DNA of 34,671 nucleotides from a virus. Of this stretch, positions 2,452 to 32,010 are shown piece after piece. The stretch covers positions 1-34,671 of IMG/VR virus record IMGVR_UViG_3300049847_000060; one strand, written 5' to 3'. The notes under the pieces are model-generated. The model was given only the letters and a program-made list of their open reading frames with translations, had not been told where the DNA came from and searched no databases. The position numbers and the translations under genes were made by a program. Each line of letters starts with the position of its first letter. Position 1 is the stretch's first letter.

Positions 2452-2889
2452 ATGAGAAGAAAAAACGACCCCGAAGTCATAGAAAAAGAACGCAAGGTAT
2501 TAGAGCTCCGATTGAGTGGAATTACCTTCGAGCTAATTGCTAAACAGGTTGGCTTTGCTTCGGCAGGAGCTTGCTATAACGCATACAAAAGGGCTTTGGT
2601 CAGAACCTTGCAAGAACCAGCGGATGCAGTGAGGGAAGCTGAAGTCGCTCGTTTAGATAGATTGATGCAAGGCGTGTGGATTGCTGCACTTAGGGGTGAG
2701 GTTAGGTCTGTTGAGGCTGTGTTGCGAATCATGGACAGAAGGGCAAGACTGTTAGGACTTGATGCTCCAGCTAAGGCGCAGATGGAGGTGACTACTTATG
2801 ACCGAGACAGCATTGACAGTGAAGTCGCCAAGCTCGCCGCTATCTTGGCTAGTGGCCAGACGAGTGAGATGGACACACCAGCAAGCTAG
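2452..2889 (+). CDS. terS: Terminase small subunit
   Basis: 145 residues, highly helical and basic. Residues 10-50 form a helix-turn-helix-like unit (ITFELIAKQVGFASAGACYNAY), then a helical central part with RLDRLMQG and VLRIMDRRARLLGLDAP at about 89-105. This RARLLGLD motif is common in actinophage small terminases. It binds the phage packaging site and recruits TerL. It lies directly before the large subunit and overlaps it by 92 nt. The SD is weak. Small terminases diverge fast, so the call leans on motif plus position. Confidence 0.75.
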   Translation: MRRKNDPEVIEKERKVLELRLSGITFELIAKQVGFASAGACYNAYKRALVRTLQEPADAVREAEVARLDRLMQGVWIAALRGEVRSVEAVLRIMDRRARLLGLDAPAKAQMEVTTYDRDSIDSEVAKLAAILASGQTSEMDTPAS

Positions 2890-4144
2890 ACCTGAGCAAA
2901 TTCCGACAGATTCTAAAGACTGGAACACTTGGCTAGTGTTGGCTGGTCGAGGATGGGGAAAGACAAGAACGGCAGCAGAGTGGCTGGCATTTGAGGCTTC
3001 GAGAAACCCTAATACCCGTTGGGCTATCGTTGCCCCTACATTCACCGATGCTAGAGATACCTGTGCAGAGGGTGTTTCGGGAGTGGTCAACATTTTGCGA
3101 GAGTATGGCACGCTTCAGGATTACAACCGCTCGATTGGTGAAATCATCCTGAAGAACAAAAGCCGTATCAAGCTATTTTCAGGTGAAGAGCCAGACCGTC
3201 TGCGTGGCCCACAGTTCCATGGTGGCTGGTTTGATGAGCTGGCAGCATTCAAGTATGCAGAAGCTTTTGACCAATACAAGTTCGGCCTTCGCTTGGGAGA
3301 GCATCCGCAAACGGTCATTACTACCACCCCACGACCTACAAAGCAGATTCGGGAGCTGGCTAAGCGTGAAGATGTAAGGGTTGTCAGGGGTTCAACCTTT
3401 GACAATGCTGCTAACTTGTCTGAGAGTGCATTGGCAGAGCTTAGGCTTCGCTATGAGGGAACCAAGCTAGGTCGTCAGGAACTTTATGGCGAAATCATTG
3501 ATGACAACGATCATGCTTTGTGGAATCGCAGAAACATCGATGAGAACAGAGAGACTACCCCGCCCCCGTTGGCTCGCATTGTGGTTGCTATTGACCCAGC
3601 AGTGACAAGCAGTGATGATTCCGACGAAACAGGCATAGTGGTCGCAGGTGTTGCTAATGATGGGCACTATTACATCCTCGAAGATGTATCCCTAAAGGCA
3701 AGCCCTGAGAAATGGGCAAGGCAGGCAGTCGAGGCTTATCACCGATGGAAAGCCGACAGAATCATTGGCGAGACTAATAACGGTGGCGACATGATTGAGG
3801 CTTTGCTAAGGCAAGTAGATTCAAGGGTCAGTTACAAAAAGGTAACGGCGACCAGAGGCAAGGCTGTCCGAGCTGAACCAATCGCTGCTCTATACGAACA
3901 GAAGAGGGCTCACCATGTCGGAGTGTTCCCGAACCTCGAAGACCAGATGTGCAACTGGACGATCGACGACAAATCTTCACCTGACCGCATGGATGCGATG
4001 GTCTGGGCTCTTACTGAGCTAATGACAAGCCAATCAGCTATCATGGGACTAGCGGCTCTCGCCAAGTTCTGCCCTAATTGCAGGATGCCAGCAAGTAAGA
4101 CTGCAACAGTTTGTCCGAAATGCAATACGCCACTTCCAGAATAG
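2798..4144 (+). CDS. terL: Terminase large subunit (ATPase/nuclease)
   Basis: 448 residues; the packaging motor ATPase and headful or cos nuclease. Walker A is AGRGWGKT (49-56), Walker B is GGWFDE (142-147) and the coupling motif is TTTPRP (175-180). The RNase H-fold nuclease begins with VVAIDPA (262-268, Asp266), continues with IIGETNNGGD, and a late acidic motif PDRMDAMVWAL. The ATG has a strong SD, GGAGGTGA at about 2784-2791, which justifies a start 92 nt inside terS. The C-terminus is odd: CPNC (425-428) and CPKC (439-442) form a zinc-ribbon-like tail that I do not expect in a standard terminase. Confidence 0.95.
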   Translation: MTETALTVKSPSSPLSWLVARRVRWTHQQARPEQIPTDSKDWNTWLVLAGRGWGKTRTAAEWLAFEASRNPNTRWAIVAPTFTDARDTCAEGVSGVVNILREYGTLQDYNRSIGEIILKNKSRIKLFSGEEPDRLRGPQFHGGWFDELAAFKYAEAFDQYKFGLRLGEHPQTVITTTPRPTKQIRELAKREDVRVVRGSTFDNAANLSESALAELRLRYEGTKLGRQELYGEIIDDNDHALWNRRNIDENRETTPPPLARIVVAIDPAVTSSDDSDETGIVVAGVANDGHYYILEDVSLKASPEKWARQAVEAYHRWKADRIIGETNNGGDMIEALLRQVDSRVSYKKVTATRGKAVRAEPIAALYEQKRAHHVGVFPNLEDQMCNWTIDDKSSPDRMDAMVWALTELMTSQSAIMGLAALAKFCPNCRMPASKTATVCPKCNTPLPE

Positions 4145-10103: not shown

Positions 10104-11743
10104 TGGAAACTCCAAAAGCATCAGACCTGTTCGGCGATCTATCAGCTAAAAAAGCTGCAGAGCGCATGGAACAGTTTCAGGGCGAACTAAACAAGTCGTT
10201 CGCTAACGCATCGTCAGTGCCTGGTCAGGCTCCAAGCTCAGACCCAGCACGCACCCTTGAGACCCTAGTTGCTAACAAGTCACTAGCTCCAGAGGCTCTT
10301 GGTGCCTTGAACTCAGCTCTTGCTGCACAGCGTTCAGCTTCAGCAGACCTAATCAAGGACATCACCCTAAGCAACCCGCTATCAACTTCATTCGCTCAGT
10401 TTGACCTTGAAGCACCAGCTAAGCTACTAACCCCTCGCCCAACCCCAATCCGTAACAAGATTGCTCGCAAGAAGGGTGTTGGAACTAGCCACCGTATCAA
10501 GAAGATTACTGGTTACACTGGTACTGGCACTGGCGGTCAGGGCAACATCTGGCCTGGTATCACCGAATCAACTACCAACGCTTTCGGTTCAATCAACTAC
10601 GAGCGTGGCCCGAAGATTAGCTACACCGCTGAAGATGCGATTTTCCCTTACTTCAGCTACTCGCTATCTGACAGCGTTTCATTCGACGCAAACTTCTCAG
10701 GTCTTGGCTACCAAGACTTGCGTCAGCTATCAAGCACCAGCACTCTATACGCAACCATGCTTATGGAAGAGCGCATGATGCTAATGGCTCGTGGAACTGC
10801 TTCAGGTCTATCAGGTGCTCTTGCTGCTCCAACCTTCACCCTAACCGCTGCTTCAGCTGGTGCAGGTCAGGTTGCTCTAGCAAACGCAACTTACTATGTT
10901 TACATCACTGCTGATGCAGGTGCTTTCGGTGAATCAGTGCTATCAAGCGTTGTTTCACAGGCAACCACTTCACAGCTACTAAACATCACCATTACCGTTC
11001 CTTCAGCTGGTGCTCTTGGCTACAAGGTCTATGTTGGAACTTCAACTGGTGCAGCTAACGCTCACTATGTTGGCCGTATCTCAGGAACAACTGGAACTCT
11101 TCAGGGTGCAGCTTCAACCAACACCCTTGGCGACAACCTAGTGTTCAACACCACTGGAACCTTGGCTTCAACCATTACTGGTGACACCTCGGCTTACGCA
11201 ACTGGTTACGACGGCATCATCCCTCAGATTGTTGCTGGCGGAACTGTCAACAGCATCAACAGCACATTCTCGACTAGCAACCCAGGTGTTGAATTCCAGA
11301 AGGTATTCAGCGACCTTTACAACTCAGTAAAGGCTGACCCAGACGAGATTTTCTTGAACGGTGCTGACCGCAAGCAGTTGTCAGATGCGATCAAGAACGG
11401 CTCAACCGCTAACTACCGTCTGAACCTAACTCAGACCGAAGCTGGCGACTATGTCGGTGGTGCAGTTATCGGTGGTCTCTACAACGAGATTACTGGCAAG
11501 CTAGTTGACCTAACTGTTCACCCATGGCTACCACAGGGTGTTGCTCCAGTTATGAGCTACACCTTGCCAATTCCAGACACCGAGGTTTCGGATGTATGGG
11601 CTGCAGTTAACGTGCAGGACTACATGGGCATTCAGTGGCCTGTGACCCAGTTCGCATACGAGACCAGCACTTACTTCCGTGGAACTCTAGTTGGTTACGC
11701 ACCAGCTTGGAACGGTCTAGTTACTGGAATCAAGTCAGCCTAA
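10103..11743 (+). CDS. Major capsid protein, HK97-fold, with an inserted beta domain
   Basis: 546 residues. The N-terminal 100 residues are helical and probably removed by the protease; the body from about residue 110 shows HK97-type patterns ending in DVWAAVNVQDYMGIQWPVTQFAYETS-like P-domain strands. Residues about 230-345 (TFTLTAASAGAG, ANATYYVYITADAG, GALGYKVYVGTSTG) form an extra beta-sandwich, Ig/FN3-like, likely exposed on the capsid. Codons are strongly biased (AAC, TAC, GCT, GGT dominate) compared with early genes, consistent with high expression. It is followed by the best intrinsic terminator in the genome. Confidence 0.92.
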   Translation: METPKASDLFGDLSAKKAAERMEQFQGELNKSFANASSVPGQAPSSDPARTLETLVANKSLAPEALGALNSALAAQRSASADLIKDITLSNPLSTSFAQFDLEAPAKLLTPRPTPIRNKIARKKGVGTSHRIKKITGYTGTGTGGQGNIWPGITESTTNAFGSINYERGPKISYTAEDAIFPYFSYSLSDSVSFDANFSGLGYQDLRQLSSTSTLYATMLMEERMMLMARGTASGLSGALAAPTFTLTAASAGAGQVALANATYYVYITADAGAFGESVLSSVVSQATTSQLLNITITVPSAGALGYKVYVGTSTGAANAHYVGRISGTTGTLQGAASTNTLGDNLVFNTTGTLASTITGDTSAYATGYDGIIPQIVAGGTVNSINSTFSTSNPGVEFQKVFSDLYNSVKADPDEIFLNGADRKQLSDAIKNGSTANYRLNLTQTEAGDYVGGAVIGGLYNEITGKLVDLTVHPWLPQGVAPVMSYTLPIPDTEVSDVWAAVNVQDYMGIQWPVTQFAYETSTYFRGTLVGYAPAWNGLVTGIKSA

Positions 11744-30280: not shown

Positions 30281-30424
30281 GTGTGGCTATTCTTTATCTG
30301 GCTGGCTGGGTTGTTGGTCGGTTTATCTATCTTTACAAGACCTGCTTGGTTTTGGGAATTGGCATTTTGGATTGAAATTAAGTGCATTGAGAAATTTGGC
30401 ATCGTCGAAAGGCTCGACGATTAG
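30281..30424 (+). CDS. Small membrane protein (47 aa)
   Basis: 47 residues from GTG 30281, 2 nt after the FmdB-like gene. Residues 1-18 (WLFFIWLAGLLVGLSIF) form one membrane helix; an aromatic second helix (AWFWELAFWIEIKCIEKFG) follows. No SD, so translation would be coupled to the upstream stop. It overlaps the HNH-like gene by 53 nt. It looks real by hydrophobic pattern but is short. Confidence 0.5.
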   Translation: MWLFFIWLAGLLVGLSIFTRPAWFWELAFWIEIKCIEKFGIVERLDD

Positions 30425-30749
30425 ACCAAAAGAATTTGAAAAGTATCTTCAGAGAGATAACTACCAATGCTGGCACTGTGGCAAATCGGGAGACGATCTA
30501 GTCCCGCAGCATCGAATTGGCAGGGGAATGGGTGGAAGCAAATCCCGAAATGGGTCGGCTAACATACTTGTCTTTTGCTCGTTGGCAAATGGTCTAATGG
30601 AATCCGATGCTGACTTTGCTGAAAAGGCTAGGGCTATGGGCTGGAAGCTGTCTAACTACATGACACCTGAAGTTACGATGGCTTACAACTATGCCGATGG
30701 TTGCTGGTATTTGCTAGATGAAAACACAAGGCGAAGGGCTGTGGCTTGA
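30372..30749 (+). CDS. HNH-fold protein, probable degraded nuclease
   Basis: 125 residues from TTG 30372; a TTG at 30396 is an alternative. FEKYLQRDNYQCWHCGKSGDD (22-42) and DLVPQHRIGRGMGGS (42-56) correspond to the Cys pair and the first His of an HNH domain, and SANILVFCSLANGLMES to the second part. The closing His of the active site is not clear, so it may bind DNA without cutting. HNH proteins often assist packaging, but this one lies in the early region just before the structured RNA promoter, whose -35 overlaps its stop codon. Confidence 0.62.
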   Translation: MKLSALRNLASSKGSTIRPKEFEKYLQRDNYQCWHCGKSGDDLVPQHRIGRGMGGSKSRNGSANILVFCSLANGLMESDADFAEKARAMGWKLSNYMTPEVTMAYNYADGCWYLLDENTRRRAVA

Positions 30750-30775
30750 CAGTCTGCCATCGGATGAATTACATT
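30746..30775 (+). promoter_or_regulatory. Near-consensus promoter for the structured RNA
   Basis: TTGACA (30746-30751, perfect -35), 18-bp spacer, TACATT (30770-30775, -10). It is the best sigma-70-type promoter that I found in the genome and overlaps the stop codon of the HNH-like gene. The predicted start near 30782 is about 25 nt before the first RNA helix and there is no ORF behind it for over 600 nt. Confidence 0.72.
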
Positions 30776-30781
30776 CGAGGC

Positions 30782-31240
30782 TTACAACTGAAAAGGTAAA
30801 AAGAAACCCCCAGCGGAAACTGGGGGAATCTCAACCAAGAAAAATCCTGCTTGTTCTCTAAACAAGATAAGTCTAGCTCGATAAGTCGAGAATAGGCAAG
30901 CAGGTTCACTGAGGATTTTGTCCGTTAGTCAGTGGCTAAAAAACTTCCCGCCTTTTGTCAAGGTGGTTATCGGCCGTTAGAGGGTGTCGAATTAGTCTGC
31001 CCTGAAATGACAAGCTTCAAGGCACATGCTGTTATCTGAGGACAGCGAGAGATGTCTAGTCGAGGTAAAAACGAACTGCCTTGCCTCATTGAAATTGATT
31101 AGGCATCACATGGCGCAGTTGGGCGAAAGCCCCCATGAAACCAACCGAAGACCTAAAGGGTTCGATTTGGGGAGTGGCTGACTAAGCCATTCCCTGCCCT
31201 CAGAGCCTGCGGGTTCGATAGCTCACTATTCTTCACTGTC
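30782..31240 (+). ncRNA. Large structured non-coding RNA, GOLLD/ROOL-like candidate
   Basis: No gene of 30 residues or more is convincing between 30750 and 31372. Helices on the + strand: CCCCCAG/CTGGGGG (30807-30826); AAAATCC/GGATTTT (30841-30847/30913-30919) enclosing TGCTTG/CAAGCA; CTCGA/TCGAG with TAAG loop (30877-30890); CCGCCTT/AAGGTGG (30948-30966, G.U); TGCC..TGAA/TTCA..GGCA (30998-31024); GCTGT/ACAGC (31028-31046); AACTGC/GCAGTT (31074/31115); GGGC-GAAA-GCCC GNRA hairpin (31121-31132); GGGAGTGGCT/AGCCATTCCC (31170-31194, G.U). G.U pairs and the GNRA loop favour the + strand. Size and aquatic phage setting recall GOLLD and ROOL. The 3' end is uncertain; no terminator is seen. Confidence 0.68.
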
Positions 31241-31371
31241 TGTCAGTATCTAAAAAGAGCAAAGACGATCTGATTACTCTCAAAAACTACTAGTTGCTGT
31301 TATCAAAAAGAAATAAAAAAAGTTTTGAAAATGGACTAGACAACTGCCCGCACCGATGTAGTCTAACTGCG
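31241..31371. other. Gene-free A/T-rich spacer after the structured RNA
   Basis: A weak AGAG/CTCT stem and ACTG/CAGT stem are seen, then an A-rich tract (31304-31320). No ORF with start and SD. It may hold the 3' end of the structured RNA and the upstream activating part of promoter P3. Confidence 0.5.
31337..31364 (+). promoter_or_regulatory. Early promoter P3
   Basis: TAGACA (31337-31342; one change from TTGACA), 16-bp spacer, TAGTCT (31359-31364). Predicted start 31371-31372 is the first base of hairpin copy 3. The bases AACTGCGTG after the -10 are shared with P1. Confidence 0.65.
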
Positions 31372-31391
31372 TGGTCGAAGGGGTTCGGCCA
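31372..31391 (+). ncRNA. 5'-UTR GGGG-loop hairpin, copy 3
   Basis: TGGTCGAA (31372-31379), loop GGGG (31380-31383), TTCGGCCA (31384-31391): 8 bp with one U.G. Located at the predicted transcript start and followed by SD AAAAAAGGAAATG. Confidence 0.75.
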
Positions 31392-31408
31392 GAAAAGGAA
31401 AAAAGGAA

Positions 31409-31636
31409 ATGTCAGAAGTCGTAAATGTGAAGGCCGAATTCTATCGGTTCGCAGAAGAGTTTTGCGAGGAAATGGAAAGGGATTACTGGGAGAAGGTTGA
31501 CGAAAGAATCAAGGCCCACTCAAGTGGAATTTCGTCAAGAGTAGAAGAAACAGAAAAAGCTGCGTCCGTTTCTTTCATAAGGATGCAAGCCGTCGCTCAG
31601 TTTGTTTCAGAGTTCGAGAAAAGAATTGCAAAATGA
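31409..31636 (+). CDS. Hypothetical helical early protein (75 aa)
   Basis: 75 residues, charged and helical (FYRFAEEFCEEMERDYWEKVDE, AVAQFVSEFEKRIAK), probably a coiled-coil dimer. SD AAAGGA lies directly before ATG. It is coupled by ATGA to the following gene. No known family. Confidence 0.65.
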   Translation: MSEVVNVKAEFYRFAEEFCEEMERDYWEKVDERIKAHSSGISSRVEETEKAASVSFIRMQAVAQFVSEFEKRIAK

Positions 31637-31979: not shown

Positions 31980-32010
31980 CGTTACTTATGTGGTCGAAGG
32001 GGTTCGGCCG
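31977..32010 (+). promoter_or_regulatory. Promoter P4 (weak -10) and 5'-UTR GGGG-loop hairpin, copy 4
   Basis: TAGCGT (31977-31982) as -10; no clear -35. The hairpin is GGTCGAA (31992-31998), GGGG (31999-32002), TTCGGCC (32003-32009), identical to the copy 3 core, with a further T.G pair outside. ATG 32028 follows with SD AAAAAAGGAA. The 18-nt hairpin core is exactly repeated between copies 3 and 4, 620 bp apart. Confidence 0.68.

Follow-up and report, generated by a model that had tools for sequence, protein, structure and literature searches.

The functions of the GOLLD, ROOL and OLE RNAs remain poorly understood; GOLLD RNAs are often longer than 800 nt and situated near tRNAs, and the ROOL RNA that was studied is 659 nt long (PMC12286853). 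The put RNA of phage HK022 acts while nascent, suppressing both pausing and termination (PMC9378689). The RNA described here is encoded in a 34.7-kb record of a freshwater phage (IMG/VR IMGVR_UViG_3300049847_000060), all 34,671 nt of which were analysed and are referred to below as the window. It differs from GOLLD in its length of about 370-450 nt and in that the window holds no tRNA, and from ROOL in its sequence and fold.

An earlier note, made from the sequence alone, proposed that this RNA could belong to GOLLD or ROOL or could represent a new class. The first of these proposals is not supported, since neither family matched positions 30700-31420 even at E<=10, and cmscan with all Rfam 15 families gave no match at the gathering score, either for the window or for nine related loci. 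Relaxed Rfam scans returned scattered weak matches to unrelated families only; group I and group II introns were absent from such matches to the window region and to contig L159, and pRNA and tmRNA were likewise absent from the relaxed matches. Neither ARAGORN nor Rfam found a tRNA or tmRNA at the RNA, no tRNA was found elsewhere in the window, and ARAGORN made two isolated calls only in 12 relatives (L003 and L005), both kilobases from the RNA. One weak end-to-end match to cold-seep-1 (RF03089) occurred at 3548-3656 of L003, in the P7-P10 area, and none was seen in the window or L159. We rejected this identity, as the match scored 22.5 bits against a gathering score of 125.8 and the outer helix of cold-seep-1 would be incompatible with P7a; it is probably due to chance.

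No description of the RNA was found in open-licence papers. The class is very probably absent from Rfam, and the covariation among homologues, together with the lack of any Rfam family at threshold, supports the second proposal, a new class of large structured phage RNA that is neither GOLLD nor ROOL. It matched no family in any of the tests applied here; its function may prove to be of a known kind.

The locus and its homologues

Among the genes of the window are those for a large terminase, portal protein, RecT, a Cas4-like exonuclease, RusA and WhiB, the last of which has been proposed as an indicator of actinophages (PMC10202952). An HNH gene (30372-30749) lies directly 5' of an ORF-free gap of 544 nt (30750-31293), and small genes lie 3' of it. 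The gap is the largest in the window when ORFs of at least 55 amino acids are considered, and the runner-up measures 191 nt, which agrees with the earlier observation that the phage has almost no spare sequence elsewhere. A sigma-70-like promoter is predicted from sequence match on the + strand at 30746-30775, with TTGACA at 30746-30751, a spacer of 18 nt, and TACATT at 30770-30775. It had been noticed previously as a near-consensus promoter. Only this one of the 22 exact TTGACA hexamers in the window (both strands) has a -10 sequence with at least four of six matches at 15-19 nt; under loose criteria, 2 such sites were counted where chance alone predicts 2.1. Folding of the + strand gave a z of -4.1 relative to dinucleotide shuffles, none of 100 shuffles equalling it, and that of the - strand gave -2.7. 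Beyond the gap, a 20-base stretch, GTGGTCGAAGGGGTTCGGCC, is found in identical copies at 31371-31390 and 31990-32009, just 5' of two GGAAATG gene starts, with zero chance copies expected; it is perhaps a repeated leader element with a regulatory role.

The RNA is present in the window and in 31 further IMG/VR contigs. Within the modelled domain, 31 of these 32 loci are distinct, and identity to the window there is 48-64%. The first loci were fetched via their nuclease and RecT proteins, the matching stretches lying in the same kind of gap, and the set was enlarged by pattern scans, a nuclease-alignment search and covariance-model searches. Twelve loci, including the window, constitute a first group, of actinophages of about 35-40 kb bearing WhiB, RecT and the Cas4 nuclease. 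The remaining 20 come from mini-siphophages of about 14-15 kb, and comprise 17 close members (about 84% identical, on contigs of up to about 14.7 kb) and the divergent L031, L036 and L204. In L159 (14,732 bases), taken as the example of this group, the RNA, a small ORF, an HNH gene and the small and large terminase genes are all on one strand, and portal and capsid genes occupy the opposite end of the contig. The large terminase of the window has its best match in phrog_979 and that of L159 in phrog_9; because these are different PHROG families, the RNA is common to phages that are far apart at the terminase marker.

The siphophage-like contigs of about 14-15 kb (L159, L150, L172, L183, L188, L193 and others) are smaller than most known tailed phages, and the mini-siphophage capsid protein is just about 24% identical to those of Microbacterium phages such as Quaker (Orlajensenviridae). 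BLASTN against 50,697 phage records and 72,556 plasmids gave no credible match, and hence no cultured representative is known. The refined covariance model matched none of Microcystis phage Mae-JY09, Microbacterium phage Quaker and Rhodococcus phage RRH1. Prophage copies were not found in a one-pattern scan of bacterial genomes; its 31 matches look like chance, many being one Treponema gene and none having the remaining motif. Three contigs (L092, L098 and L100) whose nuclease is 61-64% identical gave no match to the RNA covariance model; their gene neighbourhood is different and tightly packed, and they constitute natural comparators devoid of the RNA.

Covariation and the fold of the RNA

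The starting alignment consisted of eight sequences, for which a hand-written structure was scored. In this alignment 90.3% of cells were paired, and the covariation score of 0.628 compares with 0.219 ± 0.025 for shuffled alignments and at most 0.127 for slid structures. The covariance model built from it matched loci outside the training set, among them L002 (E = 5e-15), L003 (6e-21), L011 (1e-11), L004 (2e-6), L090 (1e-21), L099 (2e-21) and L101 (7e-18), to which 16 further contigs were added. For the 3' domain in all 32 sequences, 95.1% of cells were paired and 25 of 34 pairs had changed on both sides, in an alignment that was fitted to the covariance model and so leans towards it; its score was 0.594, against 0.194 ± 0.011 for shuffles and at most 0.110 for slid structures, controls neither of which models the tree. 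In the second group, an independent MAFFT alignment (398 columns) lends support to 12 helices. There 98.3% of cells were paired, and the score was 0.186 versus 0.081 when shuffled and at most 0.047 when slid.

G.U pairs outnumber A.C by 100 to 22 in the 32-sequence alignment and by 121 to 9 in the second group, and therefore the + strand is the RNA, as the earlier note had argued from the G.U pairs in the window. An RNA of the minus strand, considered on account of a terminator-like hairpin described below, is ruled out by the same counts. The absence of covariation, the presence of a conserved ORF or the use of the other strand had been named beforehand as findings that would speak against such an RNA. 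The pair counts contradict the last of these, covariation is abundant, and no conserved ORF exists, all six frames being interrupted in at least 29 of the 32 cores and core lengths falling in all three phases. These data bear on the possibility that the region encodes no RNA at all, and that its hairpins arose by chance or belong to an element of the DNA itself, for example an origin or a packaging site. Such an element would suit a non-coding stretch situated in the replication and recombination gene region and carrying a hairpin that resembles a terminator on the - strand. However, compensatory changes in the helices and the pseudoknot lie far above the shuffled and slid controls, and the strong asymmetry between G.U and A.C would not arise from DNA pairing, which makes this explanation scarcely credible. 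Compensatory changes above controls and RNA-type G.U pairs, the two signs by which we recognise a conserved structured RNA, are both found. We consider it virtually certain that the RNA is genuine, and the large, ornate non-coding RNA of the + strand postulated earlier is strongly supported by covariation. The 3' domain, with its pseudoknot, is conserved on this strand across two phage groups with unrelated terminases.

About ten local helices were located in the window, most of them backed by homologues, where the earlier note had counted at least nine; P0, P1, P4 and P8 were assigned by hand reading. All the parts lie on the + strand. At the 5' edge, a C-run hairpin (CCCCCAG...CTGGGGG, 30807-30826) has similar counterparts in L002, L099 and the second group, where the corresponding helix (helix 1 of alignment A7) is 96.7% paired. 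Read on the - strand, this hairpin resembles an intrinsic terminator, and in several relatives it follows an A-run (window 30826-30807 on the - strand, L002 about 4735, L099 about 4490, L159 about 11300). It may keep antisense transcription away from the RNA, or may simply be its first helix. The 5' domain is closed by P0b, CCTGCTTG...CAAGCAGG (30846-30904), which is predicted by single-sequence folding; enclosing stems of this kind were recognised by eye in L002, L011 and L006. P1 (30907-30934) is a hairpin with a 3' bulge GUUAG, and the same shape was seen by eye in L002, L003, L005, L008 and L011.

The next two hairpins retain their pairs in homologues. P2 (30948-30966) is made of two 3-bp stems and a 7-nt loop, of the UAACCA type in relatives. 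It keeps 70 of 72 pairs in a hand alignment of the 12 first-group members; in the second group four of its five pairs are doubly changed, and three flip from G-C to C-G in about half of the sequences. P3 (30969-30991) is a tight hairpin with the loop GUUAGAG, which takes the form GUUNGAN, with a T-loop-like UUNRA, in nearly all of 17 hand-aligned sequences; 85 of 99 inner and outer pairs are kept there. Kissing of the GUUAG of the P1 bulge with CUAAC of the P2 loop is suggestive (L005 has GUCAG with UUGGC), but the two are mismatched in the window and L011, and we do not claim this interaction. The variable hairpins P4 and P4b (30998-31046) are drawn from the fold and have positional, unaligned equivalents in relatives.

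The 3' domain begins with P5, in which 31051-31061 pairs with 31097-31107 over 11 bp, two of them G.U, according to the homologue alignment; all eight modelled pairs are doubly changed and 93% paired. Enclosed by it is P6 (31062-31087), in which all seven modelled pairs are doubly changed and 99% are paired. The loop of P6 bears AAACGAACTGCC, and from it AACTGC (31074-31079) pairs with GCAGTT (31115-31120) to form a pseudoknot, missed by the earlier reader. Its six pairs, which were left outside the covariance model, are complete in 32 of 32 sequences with 14 distinct sequence combinations, and swapped partners fit fully in 11 of 182 cases. In the covariation alignments, P7 (ATGG/CCAT, 31110-31136) encloses the second pseudoknot strand and the hairpin P7a (31121-31132), whose GAAA loop was reported earlier as a GNRA loop. 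The hairpin is real, and its loop is GNRA in just a few relatives (L089, L201 and L187), most having AUUA, UUAC, ACUA or UUGUAGUGG. P8 (31146-31164) is variable and weakly supported, with a UAUAC-type loop in several relatives and 96% pairing in the second group. In the homologue alignments the best conserved sequence is that of P9, GGGAGUGGCU-GACUA-AGCCAUUCCC (31170-31194). Conservation suggests that the flank CAGAGCC... (31201-31215) approximates the 3' end of the RNA.

Action in cis or in trans

The best explanation of these data is that bases from about 30776 to 31215 encode a stand-alone non-coding phage RNA of the + strand, approximately 440 nt long by its predicted ends. It consists of a variable 5' domain (P0-P4), in which the loop of P2 and the P3 heptaloop GUUNGAN are short but well preserved, and of a conserved 3' domain, in which P5 encloses P6, the P6 loop pairs inside P7, and P8 and P9 complete the structure. 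Such an RNA may be produced from its own promoter in the infected cell and act in trans as a folded object, a scaffold or the core of a ribonucleoprotein, around the time when early genes give way to late ones; by analogy with GOLLD or ROOL, it might do so as a homo-oligomer. The likeliest role is, in our opinion, that of a structural or scaffold RNA acting in trans, at somewhat less than an even chance; the explanation as a whole appears to us about equally likely to be right or wrong.

Several features point to action in trans. Genes adjacent to the RNA differ between phages, it is lacking from related phages that have the same nuclease, as expected of an accessory RNA, and it has been kept in contigs of about 14.5 kb where space is scarce. 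On the other hand, in the second group the RNA always stands just upstream of the next gene, which would also fit a role in cis. The main rival is a cis-acting leader, a 5' untranslated region that would control the downstream operon by, for instance, attenuation or processive antitermination like that of HK022 put. The next ORF starts 16-37 nt past the modelled core in all 20 mini-phage members and is followed in L159 by the HNH and terminase genes; in the first group a same-strand ORF begins about 45-209 nt past the core. The put RNA provides a precedent, and the likeness is that of a structured nascent phage RNA located 5' of same-strand phage genes (PMC9378689). It differs in belonging to lambdoid phages, and no covariation links it to the RNA studied here.

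Other findings are at variance with a leader. Neither an intrinsic terminator nor a Shine-Dalgarno switch was recognised where the RNA ends, and the two groups have different downstream genes. With two hairpins and about 70 nt, known put elements are much smaller than the 370-450 nt of this RNA. Moreover, all 17 close members of the second group have a motif TGC-TANNNT, resembling an extended -10 element, between the RNA and the gene, exactly 21 nt past P9 and 6 nt before the next start codon (RTG), though these members are about 84% identical and do not amount to 17 independent observations. The pattern TGC-TANNNT-N6 occurs about 0.07 times per kb in the close mini-phage genomes, or about once per genome; in L159 the motif with its start codon is found at 11648-11665, at the start of the next operon. 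By its sequence, TGC-TANNNT-N6-RTG resembles an extended -10 promoter from which a leaderless mRNA would start. Such a fixed element before the next gene suggests that the RNA and the downstream genes have a promoter each. We thus regard control in cis as unlikely; it keeps an appreciable minor share of the probability because the mini-phage RNA always closely precedes the next gene.

The gene neighbourhood also raises the question of a packaging or terminase-associated RNA, similar to the pRNA of phi29, as in L159 a few small genes separate the RNA from the terminase gene downstream of it. In the window, however, the terminase (2798-4144) is far from the RNA, both terminases belong to ordinary large-terminase families which differ between the groups, and no pRNA family matched; this role is very unlikely. 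HNH-like genes adjoin the RNA in the window, L004, L005 and L099, and one is found downstream of it in L159. A guide-RNA system linked to HNH was considered and rejected, since the HNH families of the window and L159 differ and other members have other neighbours.

The occurrence of the RNA in some relatives and its absence from others would be compatible with a decoy or counter-defence RNA as well, one that would sequester a component of the host such as an RNA-binding protein, a nuclease or the ribosome, and the conserved unpaired loops GUUNGAN, UAACCA and AAACG are possible binding sites. No Rfam family of any function matches; we consider a decoy rather improbable. Returning to the trans-acting scaffold, the most far-reaching proposal is that the two unrelated actinophage groups share a large phage RNA machine of a new class, acting in trans, which combines a pseudoknotted 3' core with T-loop-like elements in its 5' part, folds alone or self-assembles, and has a function new for phage RNAs. 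We put it forward tentatively, as possible but short of probable.

Few bacterial or phage RNA classes are known to reach such a size and complexity. The present RNA is compact and has been retained in contigs of about 14.5 kb, which have little space to spare; since some related phages have it and others do not, natural variants exist. The alignment of 32 sequences and the clear pseudoknot make it an immediate target for structure determination and expression tests, and the purpose of large phage RNAs becomes approachable in very small phages.
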